A DNA stretch of 20,168 nt, taken from contig CAJXXJ010000006.1 of NCBI GenBank assembly GCA_913062745.1, forward strand, positions 1 through 20,168, given 5' to 3'. Within the stretch, counting starts at the first letter, position 1, and each line of letters opens with the position of its first letter. This DNA is from an uncultured Phaeodactylibacter sp. (GTDB taxonomy: Bacteria; Bacteroidota; Bacteroidia; Chitinophagales; Saprospiraceae). Positions 770 to 15,763 of this stretch are shown here, one piece after another. The notes below the pieces were generated by a model that was given only the letters and a program-made list of their open reading frames with translations, was not told where the DNA came from and did not search any database. A program made the position numbers and the translations under genes.

Positions 770-797
770 GCCGGAGCCACTGCAAGATGGCCCCGGC
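770..797 (-). terminator. Terminator-like hairpin after the second FecR-like gene
   Basis: GCCGGAGCCA (770-779) pairs with TGGCCCCGGC (788-797) around an 8-base loop, giving a 10-bp stem with one G-U pair when read on the minus strand. It begins 10 bases past the stop codon of the 807-1817 gene. The following bases are only weakly T-rich (CTTCCTGTT), so termination efficiency is uncertain. Confidence 0.5.
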
Positions 798-806
798 AGT
801 ATCTTA

Positions 807-1817
807 TTACGGATTGATCCCTTCGTATTCGTAGAGGAAGCTGCTCAGTATAGCGGCTGCCATTTCGTTACGCGGGTAGCGACGAACGGCTTCCCGGTAC
901 CGGTCATAGGCCATGCCTTGCATACCACCATCTTCAAATGCCGCCCCTTCAATCAGCAGGCGGACATCCGGTGAGGCGGAGGTGTAGAAACTGCTGGACT
1001 GCAGATTTTCCATGATTGCTTCTGCCTCACTTTCGGCCACGTACTGGAATGGCACCGCGGAGGTGTTTTGGCCAGCATCGCCGGCCAGGCTTGCACGCCA
1101 TTTGTAATAGTTGCCGGGCTGCAGGCCCACTTCTGCAAGGTCTACCGTATGGGTGTTGCCTTGTACTTCTTTTTCCCAAACCACCTTATCGTCTTCACCC
1201 AGTATGGACAGCGTGAAGTTCTTGGCAGCTTCGGCAGCCGTTTTGCGGGGTACCCAAAAGAAAGTGGTGCCACCGTCGCTCGTCTTCGCCGGCTTGATGC
1301 TCAGGTTGTTAGGGCTGACCGGAATGAATGCAGAGCTGGGGTCCTGATGGCCTTCTCTGGTAGGCCGGGATGGCGGCTTGGTAGAGGTGCTTTCTGTACC
1401 GGACTGGCCTCCGTTGGTAGACACAAAACCAAGTACTGCAGGCTCGTGGAAATAATCATTCTCGGAATAATTGAGCCGGTTTGTGAATGCAGTCAGGTAG
1501 TCATCATCCTGAAAAGCTCGTGCGTCCGAAAGCAGCTCTTCCACCGTTGCTTTCTTTTTGCCACTATAGGTAGCAAACTCCTCATTGTGCAATAAAGACA
1601 CCTGAGCGCCGCTCCTAATCTTCAACCTGCCATCAGGCGAAAGCCGTGTACCCGGCTCCAGATTTTGGTAATTGAACCAGCCTTTTGCTTCCGGCGAATA
1701 TTTGGCTTTGCCGCTTACGCTGTATACCAGTGCGCGGCTGTCTTCTGCGCCCTCCTGTGCCTGCAGGCTCAAGGCCAAAAAGCAGCAGAGGCTTATCCAT
1801 AAATAGTTCTTTTTCAT
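807..1817 (-). CDS. Secreted FecR-like domain protein, last gene of the CHASE2 group
   Basis: Predicted exported protein of 336 residues, function unknown. A signal peptide covers residues 1-20 (cleavage near LQA-QEG). Residues 28-100 resemble the FecR sensory domain: a short beta-rich stretch with VSGKAKYSP, LEPGTRLSPDGRLKIRSGAQVSLL and a basic turn. There is no FecR-type N-terminal anti-sigma helix bundle and no sigma factor nearby. A Ser/Thr/Pro-rich linker (about 132-165) leads to a beta-sandwich-like, perhaps fibronectin-III-like, segment (about 164-262, with NYYKWRASLAG). A helical tail (262-336) has the look of a single TPR-like repeat. The same layout occurs in the paralogue at 3470-4435. 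It lies 30 bases after the M48-like gene, so co-transcription is likely. The FecR assignment is by pattern only. Confidence 0.7.
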   Translation of the reverse strand: MKKNYLWISLCCFLALSLQAQEGAEDSRALVYSVSGKAKYSPEAKGWFNYQNLEPGTRLSPDGRLKIRSGAQVSLLHNEEFATYSGKKKATVEELLSDARAFQDDDYLTAFTNRLNYSENDYFHEPAVLGFVSTNGGQSGTESTSTKPPSRPTREGHQDPSSAFIPVSPNNLSIKPAKTSDGGTTFFWVPRKTAAEAAKNFTLSILGEDDKVVWEKEVQGNTHTVDLAEVGLQPGNYYKWRASLAGDAGQNTSAVPFQYVAESEAEAIMENLQSSSFYTSASPDVRLLIEGAAFEDGGMQGMAYDRYREAVRRYPRNEMAAAILSSFLYEYEGINP

Positions 1818-1847
1818 GCGAATTGGGTTTGTGTATGTAAGGATTTT

Positions 1848-3473
1848 TTATTCTTCAGGGTCAAAACTCTTTCGGAAGACCACCCAGCGGCGAAGCGCTG
1901 CGGTTTCATCCAGCAAAAACAGAATCTTTTGTTCGTCATAGGCCAGGCATTGCCCGTCTGCCAGCGTCAGTATTCGGTTGGGCGGGCCGTAAGCCTGGTG
2001 AATCTGGCTTATTGAAGCGCCCAGGCTAACCCCCCGGTTGGTCGCGCCGTGGTAGTTATCATTGGTCTGCAGGAACATAGCGTAGTGCGGGCCGTCTTCT
2101 TCGTAGTGCATCAGGATCTGAGCCGAGTCTTTTGGCTGAAAGCCATTGTAGACGCCACGGCTGACGATCAGCTCGCTTTCGTATTCCGGGTACGCCAGGT
2201 AGGTATCCGGCTCAATACCCGCTATCATCTCCACGCCCCGTTCCGGCTCGGCGGGTTCGGGCAGCAGGGCGGTGCCACCCCGCAGCATAGCCAGGTTGCC
2301 AGCGGCGAGGGTGGGCCGGGCCTGTTCTGCCTTTTGAAACTGCAGTGCGGCCGCAGCGGTATCTCCGCGCAGTGCGGCAATGACCCCCAGAAGGATGTCC
2401 GCATTTGCTATGGTGCCGGAGCCTGACGTTGCATCCGCAATGGCCATAGCCTTTCGGGCCCGGTATTCCGCATCGAGCCATTCCTCCCGCAGCAGATAGG
2501 TGATGGATAGGTTGAGGTGGGCGGTGCTGCGGTCCTCATTTAGCAGCAGGGCGTTTTTCAGCCACTGCTCTGCCTGCTCCAGGAAGCGGTGGCGGCGGGC
2601 AGCTACATCTTCCGGAAGGCGAGCCCCCAATTGCGCCAGTCGGCTGTTCAGGTCGAGTTCTACCGGCAGCACAAAGGGCATTTCGTCCGGTGGCGTCAGC
2701 TCAAGAGCAGCCAGCAGGGCATTAGCCCCGCCGTTGTTGTACAATTCGTACCCCTGATACTCCTTAAGGATATAGTCGTAGTATTCGGCGGCTCGGCCGT
2801 GCTGCTCGATGAGCGCCAGCAGGTTGGCAGTCTGATACAGCTGGTACATATTCTGCAGCCGTTTTGCCGTTTGGGCGCTAAGCTTCAGGCGCTCACTGAG
2901 GCTGGGGTATCCGCGTATTTTTTCGGGTAAACCGTAGCCACTGTAGGCCTCTTTGAGTAGCGTATCGAGAGTATGGTAGGTATTAAAGCCGGCCGATAAG
3001 GCCAGTATGCCGCCCAGGTAATCTGCTTGCTGCTCGTAGGCTTTCCCCTCTTCCATGTTGATGCCGCTGTCTTCATCCATGCTGATGAAATGCCGCTTCC
3101 AGCTGTGCTTTTCGTAGTAATGAATGATCTCGTGAGACAGCAGGGCTGCCAAAGCGTTGAGCGAATCTTTACCCAGGCCGCTGCAAATGTCATAAGCTTT
3201 TTCTTCCAGCCCTATCTGCCGCTTGTCGGCTTGCATCCAGGCCATGTACCGGCGCCCGTCGTTCATGACGAGCTCCGGCGGCGGCAGGCGGAAACTGCCA
3301 TTGGCTTTTAACAGGGTTTGAAAAACCCTTTGGGCAACCTCGTACTTGTAGCCTTCCACCGGCTGTGGCTGAAGACGCGCTGCAAGCGGGTTCAGGACAA
3401 AAGCCATGAGGCTGTCCTGAGCAGACAGACTCAGGGAAAAGGCCAGTGCGAGAAAAGTGATTATCGCTCTCAT
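1848..3473 (-). CDS. Secreted M48-like zinc metallopeptidase with TPR-like repeats (paralogue B)
   Basis: Exported protein of 541 residues with a signal peptide at 1-18 (LSA-QDS). The zinc site HEIIH is at residues 114-118 and a downstream EQQAD motif at 147-151 supplies the third ligand E147 and the conserved D, the gluzincin pattern of family M48. The catalytic set is therefore intact. The middle (about 205-400) is helical with TPR-like repeats (for example around 300-345 and 355-395). A C-terminal beta-rich module (about 478-535: GVSLGASISQIHQAYGPP, then LAYDEQKILFLLD) resembles the BamE/SmpA-like fold by eye. The start ATG overlaps the preceding FecR-like stop by 4 bases (ATGA, 3470-3473), indicating translational coupling. 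It is clearly related to the 5897-7561 gene. No transmembrane segment is seen, so it is likely periplasmic. The substrate is unknown. Confidence 0.82.
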   Translation of the reverse strand: MRAIITFLALAFSLSLSAQDSLMAFVLNPLAARLQPQPVEGYKYEVAQRVFQTLLKANGSFRLPPPELVMNDGRRYMAWMQADKRQIGLEEKAYDICSGLGKDSLNALAALLSHEIIHYYEKHSWKRHFISMDEDSGINMEEGKAYEQQADYLGGILALSAGFNTYHTLDTLLKEAYSGYGLPEKIRGYPSLSERLKLSAQTAKRLQNMYQLYQTANLLALIEQHGRAAEYYDYILKEYQGYELYNNGGANALLAALELTPPDEMPFVLPVELDLNSRLAQLGARLPEDVAARRHRFLEQAEQWLKNALLLNEDRSTAHLNLSITYLLREEWLDAEYRARKAMAIADATSGSGTIANADILLGVIAALRGDTAAAALQFQKAEQARPTLAAGNLAMLRGGTALLPEPAEPERGVEMIAGIEPDTYLAYPEYESELIVSRGVYNGFQPKDSAQILMHYEEDGPHYAMFLQTNDNYHGATNRGVSLGASISQIHQAYGPPNRILTLADGQCLAYDEQKILFLLDETAALRRWVVFRKSFDPEE

Positions 3474-4435
3474 TTTACCAGGGATTTTGCTTCTTCGAGG
3501 GCATCCATACGTGCCAGAAAAGTAGCAAACAGCTTTTTATACAAACCGGACTCCGGCTTATCCTGGGTACTCAGCTCCTGATAACGGCGGTAGGCATAGT
3601 GCAGGTAGCCGTCTTCTTCCAGCTGATAGAGCAGATAGAGCTCCTGCTCCTCTTCCGCCAGCTGCCGGTATGCATGGCTTTCCTTCAGCCCGGTCAAATA
3701 GGCATCCATATCCGGCTGGTAGATGAAGGGGTAGGTATTGGACTCCAGCATGGTGCTGTCTTTCTGCAGAGCAGTGACTTTCCAGACGTAGACCTGGGAG
3801 GAATCGAGCAGCAATTCATCGAGCCTTACGGAAAGCTGTTCCTCCCGGGCTACCGCAGTAAACACCGGCTCCTGCCCGTTGCGGGGAGTGATGGTGAAGT
3901 GGTACCCCTGCGGATGCGCTGTGCTGTCCCAGCGAAAGACTACATCGGGATGGTCCAAGGCCTGAGAAAGGTAGGTGGGAGCACCGATGGCAAAATTGCG
4001 CTCGGCAAAGCCGTTGATACCTGCCCGTGCGTTGGTGAGGTAGCGGCGGTGGTACTTTTCTACCTGCTCAGCATTATCCGTGTCCTTAATAGAGTTGCTG
4101 ATGAAAGACCAAAAACGGGTCAAAAAGCCGGAAGAGACTTCCTGCTCAGCTTTCCTTTTAAGGTCGGTCATCGCATACAGGCCAGGGCCTTCCAGGTTTA
4201 TTTTTTTATTCTCATACAGCAGCCGGGCCTGTGTGCCGTCCACCAGCCGCAGCTGCCCATCCAGTGGCAGCCGGACGCCGGCGAAAATCCGCTGCTCGTT
4301 CCCGCCTTCCCGGCTGAAAGTCACTCCTTCCAGCGAGTTGGTGTAGAGCACGGTAAACGCAGCAGGCTGCGCTGCTGCACGGATGCTCAGAGCGAGGATG
4401 AAGGCCGTAACCGAAAAGCAGATGATGTTTCTCAT
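3470..4435 (-). CDS. Secreted FecR-like domain protein (paralogue A)
   Basis: Exported protein of 321 residues with a signal peptide at 1-22 (RAAA-QPAA). Residues 27-90 form a FecR-like beta-rich region (LEGVTFSREG, then RLPLDGQLRLVDGTQARLLYENK). A helical segment follows (about 95-140, with FLTRFWSFISNS). A beta-sandwich-like domain (about 150-240, including VVFRWDSTAHPQGYHFTI and YVWKVTAL) and a Glu/Tyr-rich helical tail (about 245-321, AYRRYQEL) complete it. This is the domain order seen in the 807-1817 protein, though sequence similarity is low, so they are divergent paralogues or analogues. It starts 71 bases after the CHASE2 gene and overlaps the next M48-like gene by 4 bases. In other bacteria FecR-domain proteins are found beside CHASE2 proteins, which supports the reading. 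Molecular function is unknown. Confidence 0.72.
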   Translation of the reverse strand: MRNIICFSVTAFILALSIRAAAQPAAFTVLYTNSLEGVTFSREGGNEQRIFAGVRLPLDGQLRLVDGTQARLLYENKKINLEGPGLYAMTDLKRKAEQEVSSGFLTRFWSFISNSIKDTDNAEQVEKYHRRYLTNARAGINGFAERNFAIGAPTYLSQALDHPDVVFRWDSTAHPQGYHFTITPRNGQEPVFTAVAREEQLSVRLDELLLDSSQVYVWKVTALQKDSTMLESNTYPFIYQPDMDAYLTGLKESHAYRQLAEEEQELYLLYQLEEDGYLHYAYRRYQELSTQDKPESGLYKKLFATFLARMDALEEAKSLVK

Positions 4436-4506
4436 AGTTATTTATTCAATGGTGTCAAAAGCTGTATTTGGCCGCCGGCAAAAGGGTTACCCGCTATTGC
4501 TCCCAA

Positions 4507-5757
4507 TTACTCTTCTTCTTCCTGCTGCGGAAGGGGGGCTTTTCGCCGAATCGGGATTTCTTCCGGGATGCGGTCGATTACGGGAATGCGTTTTCGCACC
4601 AGGCTTTCGTAAATCATGATGATGTCATAAGCCAGCAACAGGGCCAGAATGCCAATTCCAAAATCCAGCTTGAGCCGAAACTTGTAAAACAACAGGGAAA
4701 TCAGGAAAAACAGCAGGATGAACTCTACAATCTGCAGGCCGCGGGTGATTCCATGAAAAACTTCGTTGAAATCATCGTACACCCAGTGTATGAGTAGTAC
4801 ATTGAGGTAACAGAACACCACTAAAATAATCCAATTTAACCACTTTGGCAACTCCCGGATGTAGTGGCCGTTCAAAACCATAGTCAACACATTAGCGTGA
4901 ATGGCTAAACCGTACATATCCGGGATTGCTTTATTGCCGTAGCTTTGGTTGAGCGGGGTGTAATGCCGGTCCTTGAGCGGGTCGCCGGCTCCTTCCATCG
5001 GGATATAACCGACCAGCACTATCTTGTCCTGAACGATACTGCGCACCTCTTCCAGGCTCAGGTTGTGGAGGAGGTTTTCCTGCGTATGGTGGATATAGTC
5101 TGTCCGGTGGCGGGTGAAATGAATGTGCTCTACGGGGCGCTTGCGCTGCAGTAGTTTTTCGGCCTTCTCCGGAGCGTACACCTGCAGCAAAGCGGTAGCA
5201 AATGCGGGCATTGTCTCCTCTCCAACGAGCTCCTGCGGGCTGAACAGGCGGATGACTTTGGTCTGATTGGCCGGGAAATTGACATAGCCAAGCCTGGCGT
5301 GGTTGGAAAAGAAGGTATCTACACCAACCCATTCGGTAAAGCGCTCGTAGGAACGGGTGGCGTCGTGCAGCTCACAGGCGAGCACTACGCCGGGAGTCTG
5401 CCTGAGGCTTTGCTGCAGCACGGAGTCTGCATGAGCGTCTTTCCGGCCGTCAAAGAATACGTCGACACCTATGGCGCCGGCGCCGGCTTCTCCCAGTTTA
5501 TTGACCAGCTGCCCGATAGCCAGCCGGTCGGGCTCGCCGGTATGCACAAGCACGATGGGCAGAAAAGCGCCTTCTTCTTCAACGGGCTGCCCGGCCAGGT
5601 AGGCGTAGACGATATCTGTGATTTCATAGTTTTTAAGCCCGTTGTTGAAAGGGTCGATATAGTGCATATTCAGCCTGATCAGGTTGAGGAACCAGATAAA
5701 CAGGAAGATAAGCCCCGTTATAATGATACTGTGTGGCTGAATAATTCTATTGATCAT
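4507..5757 (-). CDS. CHASE2 domain membrane protein without a cytoplasmic output domain
   Basis: A 416-residue membrane protein. TM1 is at about 10-27, followed by an extracytoplasmic CHASE2 domain (about 40-300), then three closely spaced TM helices (about 305-324, 342-358, 366-384). A short tail with basic residues (VRKRIP, IRRK) ends in EEEE. CHASE2 hallmarks visible are the region GAGAIGVDVFFDG (92-104), the LGYVNFPANQTKVIR stretch (156-170), DKIVLVG (244-250) and AIPDMYGLAIHANVLTMVL (277-295). CHASE2 is a known extracellular sensory domain, usually fused to a cyclase, kinase, GGDEF or other effector. None is present here: only about 30 residues follow the last TM. It is the first gene of the group ending at 807. 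A terminator-like hairpin lies upstream, so it should have its own promoter in 5758-5841, but no clear consensus box is visible there. Ligand unknown. Confidence 0.85.
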   Translation of the reverse strand: MINRIIQPHSIIITGLIFLFIWFLNLIRLNMHYIDPFNNGLKNYEITDIVYAYLAGQPVEEEGAFLPIVLVHTGEPDRLAIGQLVNKLGEAGAGAIGVDVFFDGRKDAHADSVLQQSLRQTPGVVLACELHDATRSYERFTEWVGVDTFFSNHARLGYVNFPANQTKVIRLFSPQELVGEETMPAFATALLQVYAPEKAEKLLQRKRPVEHIHFTRHRTDYIHHTQENLLHNLSLEEVRSIVQDKIVLVGYIPMEGAGDPLKDRHYTPLNQSYGNKAIPDMYGLAIHANVLTMVLNGHYIRELPKWLNWIILVVFCYLNVLLIHWVYDDFNEVFHGITRGLQIVEFILLFFLISLLFYKFRLKLDFGIGILALLLAYDIIMIYESLVRKRIPVIDRIPEEIPIRRKAPLPQQEEEE

Positions 5758-5841
5758 CCCAGTTGTTTTCCCGGGTACAAAATAGACAAATTAAGGCAAC
5801 TGCGGAGGGCTGCCGCATAACCCGGCGGGGAAGGCGTGCAA

Positions 5842-5878
5842 AAATGCGGCTGACACCTGCACGATATCAACCGCATTT
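5842..5878 (-). terminator. Rho-independent-like terminator after M48-like gene A
   Basis: AAATGCGGCTGA (5842-5853) pairs with TCAACCGCATTT (5867-5878), a 12-bp stem with one G-U pair and a 13-base loop. Read on the minus strand the stem ends in a run of five T (GCATTTTTGC). It lies 18 bases after the stop codon of the 5897-7561 gene, and separates that gene from the CHASE2 group. Confidence 0.65.
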
Positions 5879-5896
5879 CCATGCATTGATTTTTTC

Positions 5897-7561
5897 TTAC
5901 TTAAAAGCATAATTAGCCCAGCGCTCCAGCTTCCCTCCCTTATCCAGGAAGAAGATCACTTCACCGTAAACGAGTACTTCACCTCCCGGCAGTGCCCGGC
6001 TCACCGGCGGCTCTCCGTACTTTGCAATGAGGTCGGCGCGTGGGGAGCCTGCCCTGAAACCATCATCGGTCTCCTCTTCGGACCCTTTCTTGGTGAGATG
6101 AATATAAACTCCATTCCCGCTCTTGGGCGGGTCTACCCTGATCACAGTGGAGTTATTCAGTTCCCATGCTTCTATTCTCAACTTTCCGTAAAGCCTGAGC
6201 CTCAGGACGGGGTCATTATCAGCAATCGACCCGTACCCGGTCAGGTCGATCGGGTCAATACCATCAATATCGGAGGACCATGGCTCATTATTTCTCCCTT
6301 CCGGCAGGTTCTCATCCTTAATTTTGGACAGGTTGTAGCGGGCGATGGCAGACTTTTCTGCAAGCGGGCTCAGCATCCCGATGGCCGCTTCCTTGCCCTC
6401 TCCGTTCTTCAGCGCGATCAGTGCCAGTAGCACATTCGCATCCTCTGCAGTTTTGGGGTAGGCTTCTGTCCGGCTTTGGGCCTCCACTTCTGCATAGAAC
6501 CGCGCCTGAGGCCACTCTTCCATGAGGTAGTAAGCGCAGGCCTTATTCAGGTAAGCTGGTGCGTAATCGTTGTTCATGGCCAACGCATTATTGAAGTACA
6601 TTATGGCTTCCTTCAGCAGCTTGTTGGCTTCCTTGCGCTCGGCCTCGGTAAAACCGTCTTTACTGCCTGCGCCAAAACTTAAATCCAGCTCAATGGGCAG
6701 CCGGTAGATGCGTTCGGAGCGGGGGAAGGTTTCCAATGCTTCCAATACGGCCACTGCGCCCAGGTTGCTGAACAGCTGCGGGCTCTGATAGTCAGTAAGG
6801 ATATGCCGGTATATGGCGCGGGCATTCGGGTACTCGCCTATGGCTGCCATCAGGTTGGCGATTTCGAAGAGCTGCACCATCTGCGCAAGCTTTTCTTCCG
6901 ATATTTCTGCCAGTTTCTTGCGGTCAGCAAGGCTGGGGTAACGGCCGCTTGAGTCTATTTCAGGAATCTTATACACCCGGTAGATACTGTCGAGCAGAGC
7001 CGGCCGCTGATGAAAGACCCGGTAGCCGGCAGAGTATGCCAAAAAACCGCCCAGATAATCCGCTTGCGTTTCGTTGTTGAGCTTATCGAGGTCAACTTGA
7101 GACTCCAGGCTGCGGCCGACTTGCAGTTTGTTTTGGTATTCACTTACAAAACTTGACCTCCATTGGTGTTTCTCGTAGTAATGTATCAGCTCATGCCCAA
7201 GCAGGCCTGCTACAGCAGCTGTACCTTCCTCTTCTCCCAGCGACATGCAGATATCGTAAGCTTCCTGTTCCAGTACGATGCTGTTGCTGCCCGGCCCGAG
7301 GTAAGCGCCGTGAGACATGCTCATGGACATCATGAATGGAGGAGCAGGGTAACGCTGGTCGCCCCGCGCTCTGACTAAATCATCGTAAATAGCTTTGGCG
7401 TGCTCGTATCTGACACCGGACAGCTTTGTCATATCTTCCTCCAGCGTAGAGGGTTTGCTTACATAGCTGAAAATGGGCAAGCCACGCTGGGCAGGAAGCA
7501 ATGCGGGGAGAAGGATAACTGCGCAGAGCAGTAATAACTGGTGGTTTGAGTAGTTTTTCAT
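5897..7561 (-). CDS. Secreted M48-like zinc metallopeptidase with TPR-like repeats (paralogue A)
   Basis: Exported protein of 554 residues. The start chosen is ATG at 7561 because it opens directly into a signal peptide (MKNYSNHQLLLL to LLPAQ, residues 1-25). The same frame is open to an ATG at 7633, which would add 24 residues before the signal peptide. The zinc motif HELIH is at 123-127 and ETQADYLGG at 164-172 gives the third ligand and the conserved D. The block around it (AYDIC, HYYEKHQW) is nearly identical to that of paralogue B. A helical TPR-like region follows (about 220-420). A C-terminal module (about 495-554: GSPRADLIAKYGEPP, VLVYGEVIFFLDKGGKLERW) corresponds to that of paralogue B. 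It is divergently transcribed from the 7715-9235 gene. A terminator-like hairpin follows the stop, so it may be transcribed alone. The peptidase call rests on the intact motif; the substrate is unknown. Confidence 0.82.
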   Translation of the reverse strand: MKNYSNHQLLLLCAVILLPALLPAQRGLPIFSYVSKPSTLEEDMTKLSGVRYEHAKAIYDDLVRARGDQRYPAPPFMMSMSMSHGAYLGPGSNSIVLEQEAYDICMSLGEEEGTAAVAGLLGHELIHYYEKHQWRSSFVSEYQNKLQVGRSLESQVDLDKLNNETQADYLGGFLAYSAGYRVFHQRPALLDSIYRVYKIPEIDSSGRYPSLADRKKLAEISEEKLAQMVQLFEIANLMAAIGEYPNARAIYRHILTDYQSPQLFSNLGAVAVLEALETFPRSERIYRLPIELDLSFGAGSKDGFTEAERKEANKLLKEAIMYFNNALAMNNDYAPAYLNKACAYYLMEEWPQARFYAEVEAQSRTEAYPKTAEDANVLLALIALKNGEGKEAAIGMLSPLAEKSAIARYNLSKIKDENLPEGRNNEPWSSDIDGIDPIDLTGYGSIADNDPVLRLRLYGKLRIEAWELNNSTVIRVDPPKSGNGVYIHLTKKGSEEETDDGFRAGSPRADLIAKYGEPPVSRALPGGEVLVYGEVIFFLDKGGKLERWANYAFK

Positions 7562-7714
7562 GAATTTCGGTGTTTTAAACGAATATAATGGATTGGCATT
7601 GATTCTGAGCACATGAATTTGAATTACCCGCAAAAGGTTACCTTGCGATGAGCCTTCAGGTATCCTTTATACCGGCAATCAAATACAACTAAACACCAAA
7701 GTCCTTACTTGATT

Positions 7715-9235
7715 ATGAAAACAACGCTGACCACCCTGCTCATTGCCGCAGCAAGCCTGCTGTGGGCTCAGGATTTGCACATTTACTATGACATTCAGAC
7801 CGATTCCATCTACTACCGCATGGACGGCAAGCCGGTAAAGGCCCCCCAGCTTAGGAAGGGGCAAAAAGCAGTGCTGCACGCTATCAACTACAACGACTAC
7901 CTGTATGACCTGGAACTGGTCACTGAGGAGGAAAACTACCGGGTGCCCTCCAGCGGAAGCGTATCCCCGTTTAGCGCGGCGGGCGGCGGCTTGCTGGGGC
8001 GCCTGCAGGGGCTGACCGGCGGAATGAACGGAACGGGTTTTGACTTGCAAGGGACTAATATTGGCAATGAAGTGGATGGTTTTGTTGAATCCAGCCAGCT
8101 TTCCTCCCAGGCAAAAGCAGTAGTACAGCGCTACACACTGGCACTGGACCAAATGAAAGACCACGAGGAAGAGATTCAGGGGCTGGCTGAACTCCTGGAA
8201 AAAGACATCAGCGCACAGCGCCTCAGCAATATGGCCTACTCAGAGGTACAGCGCCTGAAGCAAAACCCGGAGCTGCCCCCCGACAAAATCCGAAAACTGT
8301 CAATGGAATACATGGAGCCGGTACTCCGACCTGGCCGCGACGGATCGCTGGAAGTCAGGCAACTGATCGATCGCTCTGATGCCAATGCACAATTTCAGGC
8401 TACGCTGATGAAATACAAAGGGGAGATCGGAGGGTTGGAAAGCGAGATGGCGCAGCTGTCTGCCTTGCACGAGCTGCTGGCCACCATGGAGAGCATCTCC
8501 CCGGAGGACAAATTGGCACTTGATGCTTCTCACCAGGCCGCGCAGCGCCGGGTGAATGACTACCAGGCTACTGCTGAAGCCATGCAGGAACAGCTGGCCG
8601 GTGTGGAGCAGCTCGATCTGGTGAAACTCACTGAGTTGGCTTACCTGTATGAAGAAATGAAAGACCACCGTTTTGAACGGCAGTTCCTGATCAAGCCTGA
8701 AACCGACATTACGAACCTCAAACTGAAATTAATCCCGACCGATTCTGCGCGCCTGAAAGGTGCACGGGAGCGCAGCTTAAAGCCTATCGACCTCAACACC
8801 TACGGCGGCCTCAAGGTCAATGCCAGCGTGGGCATCAGCTTCACCAGTTTTTTCGACCGCCCGCAGGCGTACAGTGTCCGGGACTCTCTGATTGTAGGAG
8901 ATGACGAGGATGCCTTCCTGCCGGTAATCTCTTCCTTTGTGCACTTTTACCCGCAGAGCCGGCGGCAGGTTTCTGTTGGCGGTACTTTCGGCATCGGCCT
9001 TGGGGTAGGCGGGGATGATGCCGGGCTGCAAAACTTCTTTTTTGGCCCCAGCCTTATCCTGGGCAAAGGGCAGCGGGTCGTTTTCTCTACCGGGCTGATG
9101 GGCGGCAGAGTGGAGCGGCTGGCGCAGGGCTATGAAGTGGGCGACCTGTACGAGCTGGGGCAAACGCTGCCCACCAAGGAAATTTACGAACTCGGCTACT
9201 TCCTTGGTATTTCCTTTAACCTGCTGGGAGAATAA
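7715..9235 (+). CDS. Secreted coiled-coil protein with beta-rich C-terminal domain, function unknown
   Basis: I do not recognise a named family. The protein has 506 residues from ATG at 7715; a TTG two codons upstream is possible but the ATG opens a clean signal peptide (1-18, LLWA-QD). Residues 19-75 are a Tyr/Asp-rich beta-type segment (IYYDIQTDSIYYRMDG). Residues 80-120 are Gly/Ser-rich. Residues 125-320 are strongly helical and probably coiled coil, rich in Glu, Gln and Leu. Residues 360-506 look like amphipathic beta strands of an outer-membrane or beta-sandwich domain (GLKVNASVGISFTSFF, VSVGGTFGIGLGVGG, YFLGISFNLLGE). The end in an aromatic/Leu strand is compatible with a membrane beta-hairpin. 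It diverges from the M48-like gene A across 153 bases, so the two may share regulation. A structural or anchoring envelope role is inference only. Confidence 0.75.
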   Translation: MKTTLTTLLIAAASLLWAQDLHIYYDIQTDSIYYRMDGKPVKAPQLRKGQKAVLHAINYNDYLYDLELVTEEENYRVPSSGSVSPFSAAGGGLLGRLQGLTGGMNGTGFDLQGTNIGNEVDGFVESSQLSSQAKAVVQRYTLALDQMKDHEEEIQGLAELLEKDISAQRLSNMAYSEVQRLKQNPELPPDKIRKLSMEYMEPVLRPGRDGSLEVRQLIDRSDANAQFQATLMKYKGEIGGLESEMAQLSALHELLATMESISPEDKLALDASHQAAQRRVNDYQATAEAMQEQLAGVEQLDLVKLTELAYLYEEMKDHRFERQFLIKPETDITNLKLKLIPTDSARLKGARERSLKPIDLNTYGGLKVNASVGISFTSFFDRPQAYSVRDSLIVGDDEDAFLPVISSFVHFYPQSRRQVSVGGTFGIGLGVGGDDAGLQNFFFGPSLILGKGQRVVFSTGLMGGRVERLAQGYEVGDLYELGQTLPTKEIYELGYFLGISFNLLGE

Positions 9236-9275: not shown

Positions 9276-10412
9276 TTACTGCGAAACCACCCGGAATTCA
9301 GTACGTCGGTTTTTCCGGTGCTTCTCCTCTGAGCAGTTTACGCCGTCTCTGCACTCATTCAGCAGCTTAGTCTCTCCAAACCCTTTGGCGATAAGCCGCT
9401 CGCGGCGGATGCCACGGGACACCAGATAGTCTACTACCGACTGGGCGCGCCGCTGGGATAGGTCCTCATTGTAGCTTCGGTGCCCACGGGAATCGGTGTG
9501 AGCATCAATTTCCACAGCGAGCAAAGGCTTGGACTTCATCAGGGACAAAACTGTGGTGTCTATCACTATCTGAGACTCCGGCAACAAACGGTCGCTGTCG
9601 TAGTCGTAATAAATAGGCAGCACATTGAAATCCGTGTATTTACAAAGGACTTCTTCCCAGACCGGCACTATTTCTTCCTCTTTTTTCCGGGTACGCCGGA
9701 TTTCCGTGATGTATTCCGCTTCTATGCGTCGTTCAGTGGTCCGGGCCCGGCGGGGGCGTACCTGTTTAACGATGGTATCCATGACCGGCCCTACCTGTAT
9801 CGTATCTATCCGGGCCGGCTCCCGCTCTTTGTAAACTTCCACCAGAATGGTGTCGCCTCCGTACTGATACCGTTTGATTGAAGCATCCGACACCAACACC
9901 TGCGCCTGGTAAGTCTTGACTTTTGCCGGGTTTTGCACGTAGCACAGGGTCAGGCACCGCCGCGGGTCGTCTTCGTTGCAGTTTTCCATGTCAATGCGGT
10001 ATTCAAAGCTTTCATAGGGGCTCTCTATCATTACATCCCGTATGGTGTCTTTGAGCCGGGCGGGGATGACTACGATGGAGTCGAGCGCTTCTCTGACAAT
10101 TACAAGCTGTTGTATGGTGTCATAAACAGGAGGCCGGGCCACGTACTCCACAGTAGGCCCCTTCACCGTGATGACTTCCTGTTCAACCCTATATTCCTGC
10201 TTTGGCATCACTGCGATCTCGGTATAGGCAGGCCGTTTTACGACCCGAACCGTATCGTAGGTCCATATATCAGTCGGAATGCAGCGTACGTAGCATTTCC
10301 CCGGTTCAGGGTTGGGCGGGAGGAGTCCTTGCTGTGCAGTACTGCCCCCTTCCTGTGCAAAAACGGGGAGAAAAAACAACAATAGTGTGATGAGGGTTAA
10401 AGTGTTCTTCAT
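9276..10412 (-). CDS. OmpA family protein
   Basis: Predicted exported 378-residue protein linking the outer membrane or periplasm to peptidoglycan. The signal peptide is 1-19 (PVFA-QEG). The mature N-terminus has PPNPEPGKCYVRC (32-44), a motif I associate with Saprospiria-type OmpA proteins, with two close Cys (C40, C44). Residues 45-250 hold loosely repeated D-T-I/V strands (YDTVRVV, YDTIQQLVIV, KDTIRDVMI, GDTILVEVY, IDTIQVG, MDTIVKQV), not a recognisable eight-strand OmpA barrel. The C-terminal OmpA domain (about 262-378) has the binding signature DAHTDSRGHRSYNEDLSQRRAQSV; D307 and R322 match the diaminopimelate-contacting Asp and Arg of the family. It also has the late KNRRTEFRV block. An extra Cys pair (C354, C360) could form a disulfide. 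The gene is followed by the hairpin shared with its convergent neighbour. The domain call is secure; the partner of the repeat region is unknown. Confidence 0.9.
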   Translation of the reverse strand: MKNTLTLITLLLFFLPVFAQEGGSTAQQGLLPPNPEPGKCYVRCIPTDIWTYDTVRVVKRPAYTEIAVMPKQEYRVEQEVITVKGPTVEYVARPPVYDTIQQLVIVREALDSIVVIPARLKDTIRDVMIESPYESFEYRIDMENCNEDDPRRCLTLCYVQNPAKVKTYQAQVLVSDASIKRYQYGGDTILVEVYKEREPARIDTIQVGPVMDTIVKQVRPRRARTTERRIEAEYITEIRRTRKKEEEIVPVWEEVLCKYTDFNVLPIYYDYDSDRLLPESQIVIDTTVLSLMKSKPLLAVEIDAHTDSRGHRSYNEDLSQRRAQSVVDYLVSRGIRRERLIAKGFGETKLLNECRDGVNCSEEKHRKNRRTEFRVVSQ

Positions 10413-10818: not shown

Positions 10819-10892
10819 TAGCGTGAGAGTGACTTGAACACTCGACCTCAGCATTATGAATGCTGCGCTCTAACCAGCTGAGCTACCACGCC
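10819..10892 (-). tRNA. tRNA-Met (anticodon CAT)
   Basis: A 74-base cloverleaf read on the minus strand. The acceptor is GGCGTGG against TCACGCT (two G-U pairs), with discriminator A. The D-arm region is GCTCAGCTGGTTAGAGC. The anticodon stem AGCAT/ATGCT encloses loop TTCATAA with anticodon CAT. The T arm is GAGTG-TTCAAGT-CACTC. The first pair is G-U rather than the C-A mismatch of an initiator, so this is an elongator Met tRNA, or less likely an Ile tRNA whose CAU is lysidine-modified. CCA is not encoded. It has its own promoter and terminator. Confidence 0.92.
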
Positions 10893-11010: not shown

Positions 11011-11379
11011 ATGCCTGATATAAAATTGAGCATCCGGCCCGAAGTACCTACCGCACCGACTGAAGCAACGGATGCCGAGCGCTTTCAGAACGCCACCCTG
11101 CGTCCTGTGCTGAAGCTGCAAAACGATTTGATCGTAGCCGTATTCCGCCACTTCATGGAAAAGCGCAAAGTACAGTTTGAGCAGATGAATGAACAGCAGC
11201 GGGCGGCGCAGATCGAGCACAGCGTCAGCAAGGACAAACGGCTGCGCTTTCAGCTGCTGGGCCTGGTAATCGGGCAGTTCACCACTGGGGAGTACGCCGC
11301 CTTCCTGCAGCAGGAAAAGGAAGCGGTACGGCGCATCTCCTCGATGATGGTGGAGCGGCTTAAGGATAATTTACTTTAG
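11011..11379 (+). CDS. Small conserved Bacteroidota protein of unknown function
   Basis: A 122-residue soluble protein, mostly helical, with no signal peptide or membrane segment. The block NATLRPVLKLQNDLIVAVF (27-45), followed by RHFMEKRK and later LLGLVIGQFTTGEYAAFL, resembles a small family I recall from Bacteroidota genomes. It is sometimes labelled glyoxalase, but no glyoxalase metal site is visible and I do not endorse that label. No enzyme motif was recognised. The start ATG at 11011 has an AAAGGAG sequence about 19 bases upstream, too far for normal spacing; Bacteroidota often lack Shine-Dalgarno sites. The stop codon overlaps the stop of the convergent DUF5723-like gene, with no terminator in between. 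Confidence 0.75.
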   Translation: MPDIKLSIRPEVPTAPTEATDAERFQNATLRPVLKLQNDLIVAVFRHFMEKRKVQFEQMNEQQRAAQIEHSVSKDKRLRFQLLGLVIGQFTTGEYAAFLQQEKEAVRRISSMMVERLKDNLL

Positions 11380-12740
11380 TAGTAGTCCGGGCCGCCGGTG
11401 GCTACCGGGCTCTCTCTTTCGCCAAACAGCAGGCTTAAGCCCAGCCGCACATTGGAGCTGTTGCTGTCTTCCGGGCGGAAAGCGGTCAGGATATTATCCG
11501 TAGCCGCCATGAGTTGTACAGGGCCCACTTTCACAGACCCGTTGAGGCCCAGGTTGTCGAAGCGCCCGTCGCGGAAAGCGTAGATGCCGCCCAGGTGTAA
11601 AAAGGGAAGCACTTCAAACTGCGTGCTCAGGGCCACTGCATTTTGGGATTCGCCCCGGTAGCGCTCGCTGTAAAAAAGCCCGCCGACCACCCAGTTTTCG
11701 CGTAAGCGCAAAGTAGCACTGAAATAGTAGCGCGCCGGCAGCGTAGTTTCGTAAGCGATGCTGGTTTCCGTCACCTCATAAATCTGTTCGATGGTGTCGA
11801 GTACAGCACCAAATTCTGTGGTATCTTCCAGAATGCCCTGGGCAAAATCGAGCCCTTCGTACTCAAAAGTGCCATTCAGGCTATAGTTGCGCACCTCTTC
11901 TTCCCAGTTGATAGCCCCAATGTCCAGTACGCTTGCAGCCAGCTCCAGGTCGCCGAGCCGGAGGTGAGCCCCCAGGTCGAAAGCAAAGCCGTTATTCCCG
12001 GTGGTCAGGCTGCCGGCATCAAAAGTGGAAAAGTCAAAATCGGCGTCCAGGTCATCAAAGCCATCGTACTGCAAGCTGCCGGAGGAATTGACGAGGTAGT
12101 CCGCATTCAGCGTAAGCTGGTAAATCTCATCATCCGTACGCAGGCGCAAATCCTGCCGCTCGGAAGCGATGCTGCCTACGCCCGACAGAAACTTAGCGCG
12201 CCCGCCGATGGTCAGCCGCTTGCCAATATCCAGGAATGCCCCGGCAGCAAACTCCTGATACCCGAAGATGTCTATCTCCGGGCCAAAGCTGACTTCCTGC
12301 CCGATGAACTGCGCATTCCCCTGCCAGATCAGCTGCGGAAGCGCTTTCGGGTAACGGGAAAATGCATTGAAGCGGAAGGTATGGGAAGCAATGAGGCCAA
12401 AACGCCCGAAGCGTGCACCAATACTCACGGTCTCAACGTCGAGGTTTTCGCGGATGATATTCTGGTCGGCCAGGCCGGCGATCGCGTTATCGACATCGAG
12501 CACCCGCTCGCCCGTTGCATTTTCGGTGAAGAGGGTATTAAACGTGACGTTTTCAACGGTCAGGCTGTTGTACAGCCCGGGCAGCCCGATAACAAAGTTG
12601 TAGTCCGGCACCAGCGCCGGGTTGGTGCGGTTGGCCTGCCACGTTTGCCGCATGAAGTGGGTGGAAAGCTCCTGTTGTGCCAGCATAGGGCTGACAGCCA
12701 GGAGAAGCATAAGCAGGGTACTGAAAAGGTATTTAGACAT
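11376..12740 (-). CDS. DUF5723-like outer-membrane beta-barrel protein
   Basis: Exported protein of 454 residues. The start chosen is ATG at 12740, which opens a signal peptide (MSKYLFSTLLMLLLA to MLAQ, 1-21); an in-frame ATG at 12764 would add eight residues. The mature N-terminus has FMRQTWQANRTNPALVPDYNFVIGLPG, the opening seen in the DUF5723/PorV-like group, where an NPA motif starts a barrel. The rest alternates strands and turns throughout (VSIGARFGRFGLIASH, FLDIGKRLTIGGRAKFLSG, FAFDLGAHLRLGDLELAASV, YYFSATLRLRENWVVGGLFYS). It ends in NVRLGLSLLFG. It lies 32 bases after the lipoprotein gene and is likely co-transcribed with it. Its role, perhaps porin-like or a scaffold for the lipoprotein, is inferred. 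The family assignment is from memory of the pattern. Confidence 0.78.
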   Translation of the reverse strand: MSKYLFSTLLMLLLAVSPMLAQQELSTHFMRQTWQANRTNPALVPDYNFVIGLPGLYNSLTVENVTFNTLFTENATGERVLDVDNAIAGLADQNIIRENLDVETVSIGARFGRFGLIASHTFRFNAFSRYPKALPQLIWQGNAQFIGQEVSFGPEIDIFGYQEFAAGAFLDIGKRLTIGGRAKFLSGVGSIASERQDLRLRTDDEIYQLTLNADYLVNSSGSLQYDGFDDLDADFDFSTFDAGSLTTGNNGFAFDLGAHLRLGDLELAASVLDIGAINWEEEVRNYSLNGTFEYEGLDFAQGILEDTTEFGAVLDTIEQIYEVTETSIAYETTLPARYYFSATLRLRENWVVGGLFYSERYRGESQNAVALSTQFEVLPFLHLGGIYAFRDGRFDNLGLNGSVKVGPVQLMAATDNILTAFRPEDSNSSNVRLGLSLLFGERESPVATGGPDYY

Positions 12741-12772
12741 CTTGATGGTTTTCGAGTTTGGCAAAAGAAGGC

Positions 12773-14517: not shown

Positions 14518-14547
14518 TTGCGATATGGTACAATTTCCTTATCTTTC
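14518..14547 (+). promoter_or_regulatory. Bacteroidota promoter giving a near-leaderless transcript
   Basis: TTG (14518-14520), 19 bases, then TATCTTTC (14540-14547), seven of eight matches to TAnnTTTG. Transcription would begin at or just before the ATG at 14552. This supports that start over the in-frame ATG at 14525, which lies inside the promoter. Confidence 0.55.
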
Positions 14548-14551
14548 CCAC

Positions 14552-15763
14552 ATGACAGAGCAGAGCGGACATAAGGGGCCGGCGAGTCAGCCGGAGGCTG
14601 GTTTGCTGCAGCGCGCGCAGCAGTTTGCGCTACGGCTGCATGGCCAAAAACAGGACAGCCGCCTGTTGCTGCGCAACTATGCCTTTTCTGCTGCTCTGCT
14701 GGAACAAGTGCTGGCAGTAGCAGATGCCAACCGTTCCGCTGAGCGCGACCGACGGGATGCGGCCCTGGCTGCCTGCTTCCTGACGACGGGGTACCCCTTC
14801 GACTACGATCAGCCGGCACCCTACAGCGTCAAAGCGGCCCAGCAGTTTTTGCAGCAGCAAAACTTGCCCGAAGCCGAACAGCGGAGAGTGCTTACCGCCA
14901 TACAGCGAATCCTGCGCAGTGAAATCCCGGCTAATGAGCCCGAGCGCCTGCTCAACGATGCCCGGGTAGCCACGCTTTACCTGCATAACTCAGAGGAGAA
15001 GCTGGCCCTGATGCGGCTCGAGCAAGAGCTGATGCAGCAACGGGAGTTCACCAAAGCAGAATGGGCGCGCTATCTGCTGCAGCAATTGATGGCCGCCAGG
15101 CTGTACACCCACCACGGGCAGGCCGTCTGGCAGCCACAGCTGGCGCAGGCTATACATCAGCAGCGGCAGGAGGCCGACAAACGGCTGGAAAAGGAAGAAG
15201 CGCAGGCCGGTCGCTATGCTCATCTGGAAAAAAAAGAGCCGGTGCGCGGCGCACAAACTTACTTCCGCACCAACTACCGCAACCACATCAACCTGAGCGC
15301 TATTGCGGATAACAAAGCCAATATCATGATCAGCGTCAACGCCATCCTGGTATCCGTGCTGATCACCTTTCTGTCTTACCGCAATATCGGCGAAAACTCC
15401 CCGCAGATCCTCCTGCCGGTTATCATCTTCATCGTTACCGGGCTTACTTCCCTGATTTTTGCAGTGCTTTCTGCACGGCCCAAAGTCACCCGCCTCAACC
15501 GCGAGGGCAGCCCTGCCGACGAGATCAAAGACAACCTCATCTTCTTCGGCAACTTCGTATCCCTGCCCATCGATCAGTTTGAAGACGCGATGGAGGAGGT
15601 CCTCCAGGATAGCTCCCTGCTGTACGGCAATATGGTACGTGACCTCTACCACCTCGGCAAGGTGCTGGATAAAAAGTACCGCTACCTCGCTATTTCCTAC
15701 AATGTATTTATGGTGGGCTTTGCCGCCACAGTCATCAGCTTTCTGGCAGCATTATTCCTTTAG
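14552..15763 (+). CDS. Pycsar-effector-type transmembrane protein (DUF5706) with degenerate HD domain
   Basis: A 403-residue membrane protein. The N-terminal half (about 18-205) matches an HD phosphohydrolase fold in layout: a helix with RNYAFSAALLEQV, then AALAACFLTTGYP (70-82), PYSVKAAQQFL (90-100), and PERLLNDARVATLY (130-143). The metal-binding residues are lost: the HD doublet position reads TT (78-79), the first His position reads N, and the His before the S-x-x-A helix is absent. A charged linker (205-235) leads to the DUF5706/PycTM module: TYFRTNYRNHINLSAIADNKANIMISVN (236-263), TM1 about 257-275, TM2 about 286-307, and TM3 about 380-403 at the end. In Pycsar anti-phage defence, PycTM proteins respond to cCMP or cUMP and disrupt the membrane. 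No nucleotidyl cyclase is nearby, so a defence role is not shown. HD-DUF5706 fusions are common in Bacteroidota. Confidence 0.85.
   Translation: MTEQSGHKGPASQPEAGLLQRAQQFALRLHGQKQDSRLLLRNYAFSAALLEQVLAVADANRSAERDRRDAALAACFLTTGYPFDYDQPAPYSVKAAQQFLQQQNLPEAEQRRVLTAIQRILRSEIPANEPERLLNDARVATLYLHNSEEKLALMRLEQELMQQREFTKAEWARYLLQQLMAARLYTHHGQAVWQPQLAQAIHQQRQEADKRLEKEEAQAGRYAHLEKKEPVRGAQTYFRTNYRNHINLSAIADNKANIMISVNAILVSVLITFLSYRNIGENSPQILLPVIIFIVTGLTSLIFAVLSARPKVTRLNREGSPADEIKDNLIFFGNFVSLPIDQFEDAMEEVLQDSSLLYGNMVRDLYHLGKVLDKKYRYLAISYNVFMVGFAATVISFLAALFL

Follow-up and report, generated by a model that had tools for sequence, protein, structure and literature searches.

A conserved CHASE2 gene neighbourhood of Saprospiraceae with MtxA-type proteins and predicted exported peptidases: a candidate envelope module

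We analyzed a stretch of 20,168 nucleotides of DNA (the window) from an uncultured Phaeodactylibacter sp. and found in it six genes that recur together in other genomes of the family Saprospiraceae. They encode a CHASE2 membrane protein without an output domain, two predicted exported proteins of the MtxA type (FecR-A and FecR-B), two M48-like zinc peptidases with TPR regions (M48A and M48B) and a divergently encoded protein, ORF77; many related loci also carry caspase-fold (C14) peptidases. We tentatively read the set as an envelope module of Saprospiraceae and kin, in which a platform of CHASE2 and MtxA-type proteins would have periplasmic proteolysis as its output, and we rate this reading at somewhat less than an even chance. 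The draft genome to which the window belongs, as contig C6, comprises 4.7 Mb (874 contigs, 84% complete); the named relatives from our searches, e.g. Phaeodactylibacter xiamenensis, are Bacteroidota of the Saprospiraceae type. The features of the locus are as follows.

5897 to 7561, minus strand: M48A, M48-like zinc peptidase with a TPR region (554 amino acids; signal-peptide-like start by eye)
5820 to 5900, minus strand: terminator-like hairpin of 17 bp, 3' of M48A, between M48A and the CHASE2 gene
4507 to 5757, minus strand: CHASE2 membrane protein (416 amino acids; domain at residues 77–318; transmembrane segments at 11–29, 309–327, 340–358 and 364–382; tail of about 34 residues)
3470 to 4435, minus strand: FecR-A, predicted exported MtxA-type protein (321 amino acids), directly 3' of the CHASE2 gene
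1848 to 3473, minus strand: M48B, predicted exported M48-like zinc peptidase (541 amino acids) with a TPR region and a C-terminal part without an assigned fold
807 to 1817, minus strand: FecR-B, predicted exported MtxA-type protein (336 amino acids)
770 to 797, minus strand: terminator-like stem (11 pairs, 8 of them G-C) immediately 3' of FecR-B, from a consensus scan only
7709 to 9235, plus strand: ORF77, divergent, predicted exported protein (508 amino acids), the sixth conserved gene of the set

A sequence-only reading of this DNA had named the five minus-strand genes. Their positions and strands were borne out, and the overlap of 4 bases (3470–3473) and the gaps of 30 bases (1818–1847) and 71 bases (4436–4506) that it reported are all correct. 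Its gene list was real but incomplete, leaving out ORF77 and the C14 proteins present in 23 of 31 family regions. For M48A, the mechanical call of the open reading frame (ORF) starts at a TTG at 7633, as compared with 7561 used here. The hairpin at 5900–5820 has a minimum free energy of -31.6 kcal/mol (z = -3.61), and none of 200 shuffled sequences folded equally well; the consensus scan placed 16 terminator-like sites in the whole stretch against 10.4 expected by chance. With the hairpin after M48A and the stem after FecR-B, the genes for CHASE2, FecR-A, M48B and FecR-B are, judged from the sequence, likely transcribed as one unit, which fits the joint expression proposed earlier for these four. 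An M48 gene directly follows FecR-A in 14 regions, with a gap of -4 bases in three (the window included), of 1 to 110 bases in nine and of -29 and -283 bases in the remaining two, start codons being picked mechanically. The value of -283 (L156) reflects the choice of start, and the apparent order with M48 first in L202 arises solely from an early ORF start of the FecR-like gene.

The same earlier reading would have lost its ground had homologues been scattered, but a neighbourhood search across the family of the window, with 248 genomes, showed co-occurrence and co-location. CHASE2 genes occupy 41 places, spread over 39 genomes. M48/TPR genes occupy at least 135 places in at least 76 genomes, both numbers being lower bounds from at most five candidates scored per genome (E ≤ 1e-30). 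Both kinds of gene occur in 34 genomes (hypergeometric probability 1e-15, shared ancestry ignored), and an M48/TPR gene lies within 15 kb of 27 of the 41 CHASE2 places, in all 27 cases on the same strand. The regions around all 40 CHASE2 places other than that of the window were examined; 30 of these and the window belong to one output-less CHASE2 subfamily, defined by its own hidden Markov model (HMM). These 31 regions contain FecR-like genes in 30, M48/TPR in 27, ORF77 in 24 and C14 in 23 cases, and the corresponding counts over all 41 places are 31, 27, 24 and 24. Several regions lie on short contigs (6 kb at the least), and truncation accounts for part of the absences. A table of 38 loci picked mostly through M48 was excluded from the co-occurrence evidence. 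An accidental neighbourhood would agree with the separability of the parts, but it is ruled out by the same-strand co-location, the counts in the 31 regions, the FecR clades and the ORF77 places given below, and we assign it next to no probability. The gene order recurs in many genera, and the grouping is not accidental.

The identity of the CHASE2 protein is certain. PF05226 matches the domain with 91.2 bits (cut-off 26.3), and one transmembrane segment precedes it while three follow, in agreement with its first description as a CHASE2 membrane protein. A simple hydropathy rule gave four segments in 35 of 56 CHASE2 sequences, three in 17, two in 2 and five in 2. The Pfam scan revealed no second family in the protein and no cytoplasmic output domain of the kinase or cyclase type, and the tail comprises 7–79 residues with a median of 30 (56 of 60 locus sequences measured). 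By a simple rule, a signal-peptide-like start is present in 2 of 57 CHASE2 sequences as compared with 84 of 98 C14 copies. Since CHASE2 lacks a cytoplasmic output domain and most copies of its partners carry signal-peptide-like starts, the output side is likely the periplasm.

An alternative, which we regard as unlikely, is cytoplasmic signalling: the helices or the tail of CHASE2 would bind a kinase, a cyclase or a sigma factor encoded elsewhere, and the peptidases would cut back the sensor or the FecR-like proteins paired with it. In its favour, CHASE2 lies within open frames of approximately 730 amino acids in many relatives of the phylum, and the window together with 71 further loci shows sigma-like ORFs in 10 loci (the one that was scanned fell just under the cut-off of Sigma70_r2), an anti-sigma-looking ORF with no match in Pfam in 7 and a long ORF that by eye resembles a hybrid sensor in 8; L038:3435–4061, L003:20151–20993 and relatives are examples of the first two kinds. 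CHASE2 is fused to a histidine kinase in Burkholderia according to the accessible text of PMC5192318, which also gives the cues of CHASE2 as still not known in 2016. The short tail of the proteins studied here argues against such signalling, however, as does the lack of any cytoplasmic signalling cluster in more than 10 loci among the 25 largest neighbour clusters.

FecR-A and FecR-B are homologous (E = 1e-5, 20% identity) and fall into one HMM family. The pair postulated by the sequence-only reading thus stands as far as mutual kinship is concerned, whereas the FecR label does not, because PF04773 matches none of 49 family members at E ≤ 0.1; by the Pfam model, membership of FecR was therefore rejected. 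FecR folds were also absent from the VIA-align structural rows for FecR-B, which excludes nothing. The AlphaFold2 model of FecR-B has a pLDDT (predicted local distance difference test) of 88.9 and consists of a beta domain (residues 29–91), an Ig/Fn3 domain (about 164–259) and helices (262–330). Its best two-domain structural match is MtxA (PDB-entry 4z29), and the hallmarks of an MtxA-like CHASE2 partner, i.e. an Ig/Fn3 domain followed by TPR in a gene beside CHASE2, were found. DUF928 (PF06051) matches 13 of the 49 members weakly at E ≤ 0.1 (best E = 7.4e-5), and its scores on two FecR-like proteins, 20.0 and 14.0, are under the cut-off of 26. In a tree examined by position, the orthologues of FecR-A and FecR-B form separate clades of 40 and 24 rows with one change (96/98). 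Judged from these two clades, the gene order of the CHASE2 locus is inherited. A FecR-like gene is the first hallmark gene 3' of CHASE2 in 26 of the 31 family regions, at gaps of -23 to 519 bases.

M48A and M48B are paralogues with 31% identity over 531 columns. The intact HExxH...ExxAD sites noted earlier were confirmed: the zinc-site residues H114, E115, H118, E147 and D151 do not vary among the 39 aligned rows (the two proteins of the window and 37 of 120 listed matches). The assignment to M48 did not hold at the curated Pfam cut-off, the two proteins of the window scoring 16.3 and 16.7 bits with PF01435 against 20.3, and the model matches 21 of the 39 rows at E ≤ 0.01. Among locus copies, 105 of 107 contain HExxH with the third ligand in ExxxD, partly by construction, since HExxH or HExxN had been the condition for labelling a copy. 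A sequence search of the PDB with M48B alone gave no match. The C-terminal part had a BamE/BLIP-like look to us, on which we make no claim. The location of M48A upstream of CHASE2 is repeated in L002, L003 and L005, whose copies are also the nearest in the tree. Relatives of the M48/TPR proteins with one in-match stop codon, possibly decayed copies or assembly errors, were seen at G299:C267, G135:C29, G231:C1, G302:C292 and G232:C357.

ORF77 is predicted to consist of beta strands (residues 23–75), long helices (133–319) and barrel-like C-terminal strands (323–504), i.e. a coiled coil plus a barrel (pLDDT 81.2; predicted template modelling score, pTM, 0.59). Foldseek returned nothing for it at E ≤ 0.001; beyond this threshold followed a designed helix bundle and then, from E of about 4e-3 to 5e-3, small outer-membrane barrels (Ail, OpcA). 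The gene occurs in 43 of the 248 family genomes, 29 of which also have CHASE2 (5e-19), and of its 46 places, 32 have M48 or CHASE2 no more than 10 kb away and 30 have M48 at such a distance. Loci L008, L009, L010 and L012 hold ORF77, M48 and a FecR-like gene with no CHASE2 in the locus DNA examined, and genomes G119, G137, G167 and G206 hold ORF77 and M48 with no CHASE2 found genome-wide. On its other side ORF77 adjoins an OmpA-family protein (9276–10412, minus strand). As its own HMM matches just 5 ORFs in the window and the 71 loci, the window's included, this protein is probably outside the module.

These properties bear on a second alternative, to which we concede a minor though real share of probability. 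BepA/YfgC is a periplasmic M48-TPR protease. In a BepA-like system of outer-membrane assembly or quality control the M48/TPR proteins would chaperone or degrade outer-membrane proteins, ORF77 would be a client or partner, and CHASE2 and the FecR-like proteins would be an envelope-stress scaffold. BepA likewise has TPR after its M48 domain, the barrel-like strands of ORF77 and its proximity to M48 suit the idea, and ORF77-M48 persists in genomes without CHASE2. However, a patchy presence in 76 (a lower bound) of the 248 family genomes and in 8 of 296 genomes of a class draw (the window's own genome included) ill suits a general assembly factor, exported caspase neighbours would be unexpected, and in the PDB the M48 profile gave matches to TPR chains only. 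Compared with BepA/YfgC, which they may resemble in layout, the M48 proteins described here carry a further part at the C-terminal end and are encoded near CHASE2.

Caspases are known as drivers of animal cell death. C14 proteins occur at many loci in two layouts: C14 followed by TPR, mostly 700–820 amino acids, and WD40 followed by C14, about 1150–1250 amino acids when complete. PF00656 (cut-off 21.4) matches 10 of 10 C14-TPR representatives with 54.8–65.8 bits and the WD40-C14 protein of L003 with 57.8; that of L017 had no row among the 25 listed. Both the His and the Cys motif are present in 101 of 110 C14 copies of at least 550 amino acids, divided into 63 of 71 with an N-terminal C14 domain and 38 of 39 with C14 further in. 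In 27 genomes picked for their CHASE2-M48 link, C14 lies in 21 of 27 CHASE2 regions against 0.73 expected, a comparison that mixes two detectors (own HMM at E 1e-8 for the regions, PF00656 at E 1e-6 for the genome density). In the window's own genome, relatives stand on other contigs, C14-TPR at one end of C191 (67.6% over 435 amino acids) and WD40-C14 on C40 (53% over 713 amino acids). The gene 3' of FecR-B is WD40-C14 in L002, L003 and L005 and a pirin gene in the window instead. In L003 a C14-TPR gene stands directly beyond the pirin gene, and the window's contig stops inside its pirin gene (1–677), so a C14-TPR gene may possibly adjoin the window locus as well.

Based on these results, we suggest how the module might operate. 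CHASE2 without output domain and FecR-A, as a periplasmic partner of the MtxA type (beta domain, Ig/Fn3 domain and TPR-like end), would form an inner-membrane platform, with CHASE2 sensing an envelope or external cue as the trigger. The Ig and TPR-like surfaces of both MtxA-type proteins would hold the exported proteases in a complex and then release them; these would be the two M48/TPR zinc peptidases and, where present, the TPR- or WD40-linked caspase-fold peptidases. Release or activation could then lead to the cutting of periplasmic or outer-membrane substrate proteins, and ORF77 may be an outer-membrane anchor or a target. A bolder version, which we would sooner doubt than accept, is a periplasmic caspase/metalloprotease switch, in which exported C14 and M48 enzymes on MtxA-type scaffolds act as effectors of a receptor that has no cytoplasmic output and cut the envelope from within upon a cue such as phage entry, a kin signal or damage. 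It is improbable, in our estimate, that the peptidases instead mature or digest secreted, surface or predatory proteins. The signal-peptide-like starts of most partner copies and the surface-attached and predatory genera in the family would fit such a role, but no evident secreted substrate gene was present among the 25 largest neighbour clusters.

Several observations weigh against a single module with periplasmic proteolysis as its output. The ten CHASE2 places outside the subfamily have a FecR-like gene in one case, C14 in one, and M48 and ORF77 in none; seven of these places have open frames of 401–447 amino acids, so that the gene set may be lacking around some output-less CHASE2 proteins. 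By position, the M48 copies are clustered in their tree and not monophyletic, with 7 label changes. The parts are also separable: 14 of the 46 ORF77 places have no M48 or CHASE2 inside 10 kb, and four genomes without CHASE2 have ORF77 beside M48, at five places in total, as though these two genes formed a sub-module of their own. The window itself has no caspase gene, and C14 genes are abundant, with at least 285 places in the 168 Mb of the 27 genomes mentioned above.

Separability is likewise evident outside the family, where 13 regions from 12 genomes were sampled out of 16 CHASE2 places in 13 hand-picked genomes; this covers few of the 139 genomes of the phylum draw that carry CHASE2. Nine of the 13 regions hold the CHASE2 subfamily described here, eight of them with a FecR-like gene (one of these pairs, in G405, from outside the class) and two with C14, and none of the nine contains M48 or ORF77. 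The single plasmid record found with CHASE2, from Bernardetia, shows CHASE2 followed by a FecR-like gene, and M48, C14 and ORF77 were not found within 18 kb. Given their absence from the nine regions, M48 and ORF77 look like family-level additions, and from the sequences we read the locus as a pair of CHASE2 and MtxA-type genes of older date, to which the ORF77/M48/C14 set was added in this family.

No NCBIfam model exceeded its cut-off for the five minus-strand proteins. A known defence system was rejected for the locus, PADLOC giving no match at E ≤ 0.001 for the six proteins of the window; for two neighbours in L003 it returned generic caspase and HEAT models only. Elsewhere in the window, a protein of 412 amino acids (14525–15763, plus strand) has a PycTM (Pycsar effector) domain (97.6 bits) and is possibly a cyclic-nucleotide-gated defence effector. 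A protein of 847 amino acids (17294–19837, minus strand) combines AAA_33, Metallophos and PNKP ligase domains and is a single-chain Pnkp-type RNA repair enzyme. The window further contains a DUF5723 protein (11376–12764, minus strand, 261 bits) and a tRNA gene (10819–10892, minus strand).

Descriptions of the receptor domain CHASE2 mostly concern its fusions with kinases or cyclases, and the conserved set suggests what an output-less CHASE2 protein could control, namely exported proteases. Exported bacterial caspases gain a defined gene setting through this locus. If the caspase/metalloprotease switch is real, it would correspond, on the side of the envelope, to the caspase-based conflict systems that multicellular bacteria have in the cytosol.

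The earlier reading had not recognized the combination of CHASE2 and FecR-like proteins with duplicated M48/TPR peptidases, and none is described in the literature searched, which did not include subscription papers and preprints: in its accessible text CHASE2 is never joined to M48/TPR, ORF77 or exported caspases. CHASE2 beside a FecR-type protein is indeed known elsewhere, in pieces, as FecR-, MtxA- or DUF928-type (PMC5192318, PMC4439547, PMC5587647). In the BiofilmReg operon of Burkholderia a LysM-FecR protein precedes a CHASE2 histidine kinase (PMC5192318); an exported FecR-domain protein is likewise encoded directly before a CHASE2 membrane protein, but CHASE2 is fused to the kinase, a response regulator is present and the operon, as far as described in the accessible part, has no proteases. 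The Nostoc punctiforme cluster of two WD40 proteins, a hypothetical protein, CHASE2 and DUF928 (PMC5587647) recalls the weak DUF928 matches and the WD40-C14 proteins of many loci; it is cyanobacterial, and its accessible description names no M48/TPR peptidase or ORF77. Magnetospirillum MtxA is encoded beside a CHASE2-adenylate cyclase gene (PMC4439547) and shares with FecR-B the character of an exported Ig/Fn3 and TPR protein encoded beside a CHASE2 membrane protein. Its CHASE2 is joined to a cyclase, and no M48, ORF77 or caspase is described there in the text available. A similar partner stands beside CHASE2 in Magnetospirillum and also in Bacteroidota outside the family, the resemblance in Nostoc being looser; the MtxA-type protein can therefore be tested as a partner of CHASE2 in general. 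The metacaspase-CHASE2 fusion of Trichodesmium erythraeum (PMC3501461, PMC2853523), seen from the accessible text, is a single protein with a caspase predicted to be cytosolic, whereas the proteins described here are separate and predicted to be exported, a difference that belongs with the points against the proposed module. The fusion nevertheless links CHASE2, with one transmembrane segment before and three after the domain, to a caspase-fold peptidase, and it thereby supports the CHASE2-caspase link.

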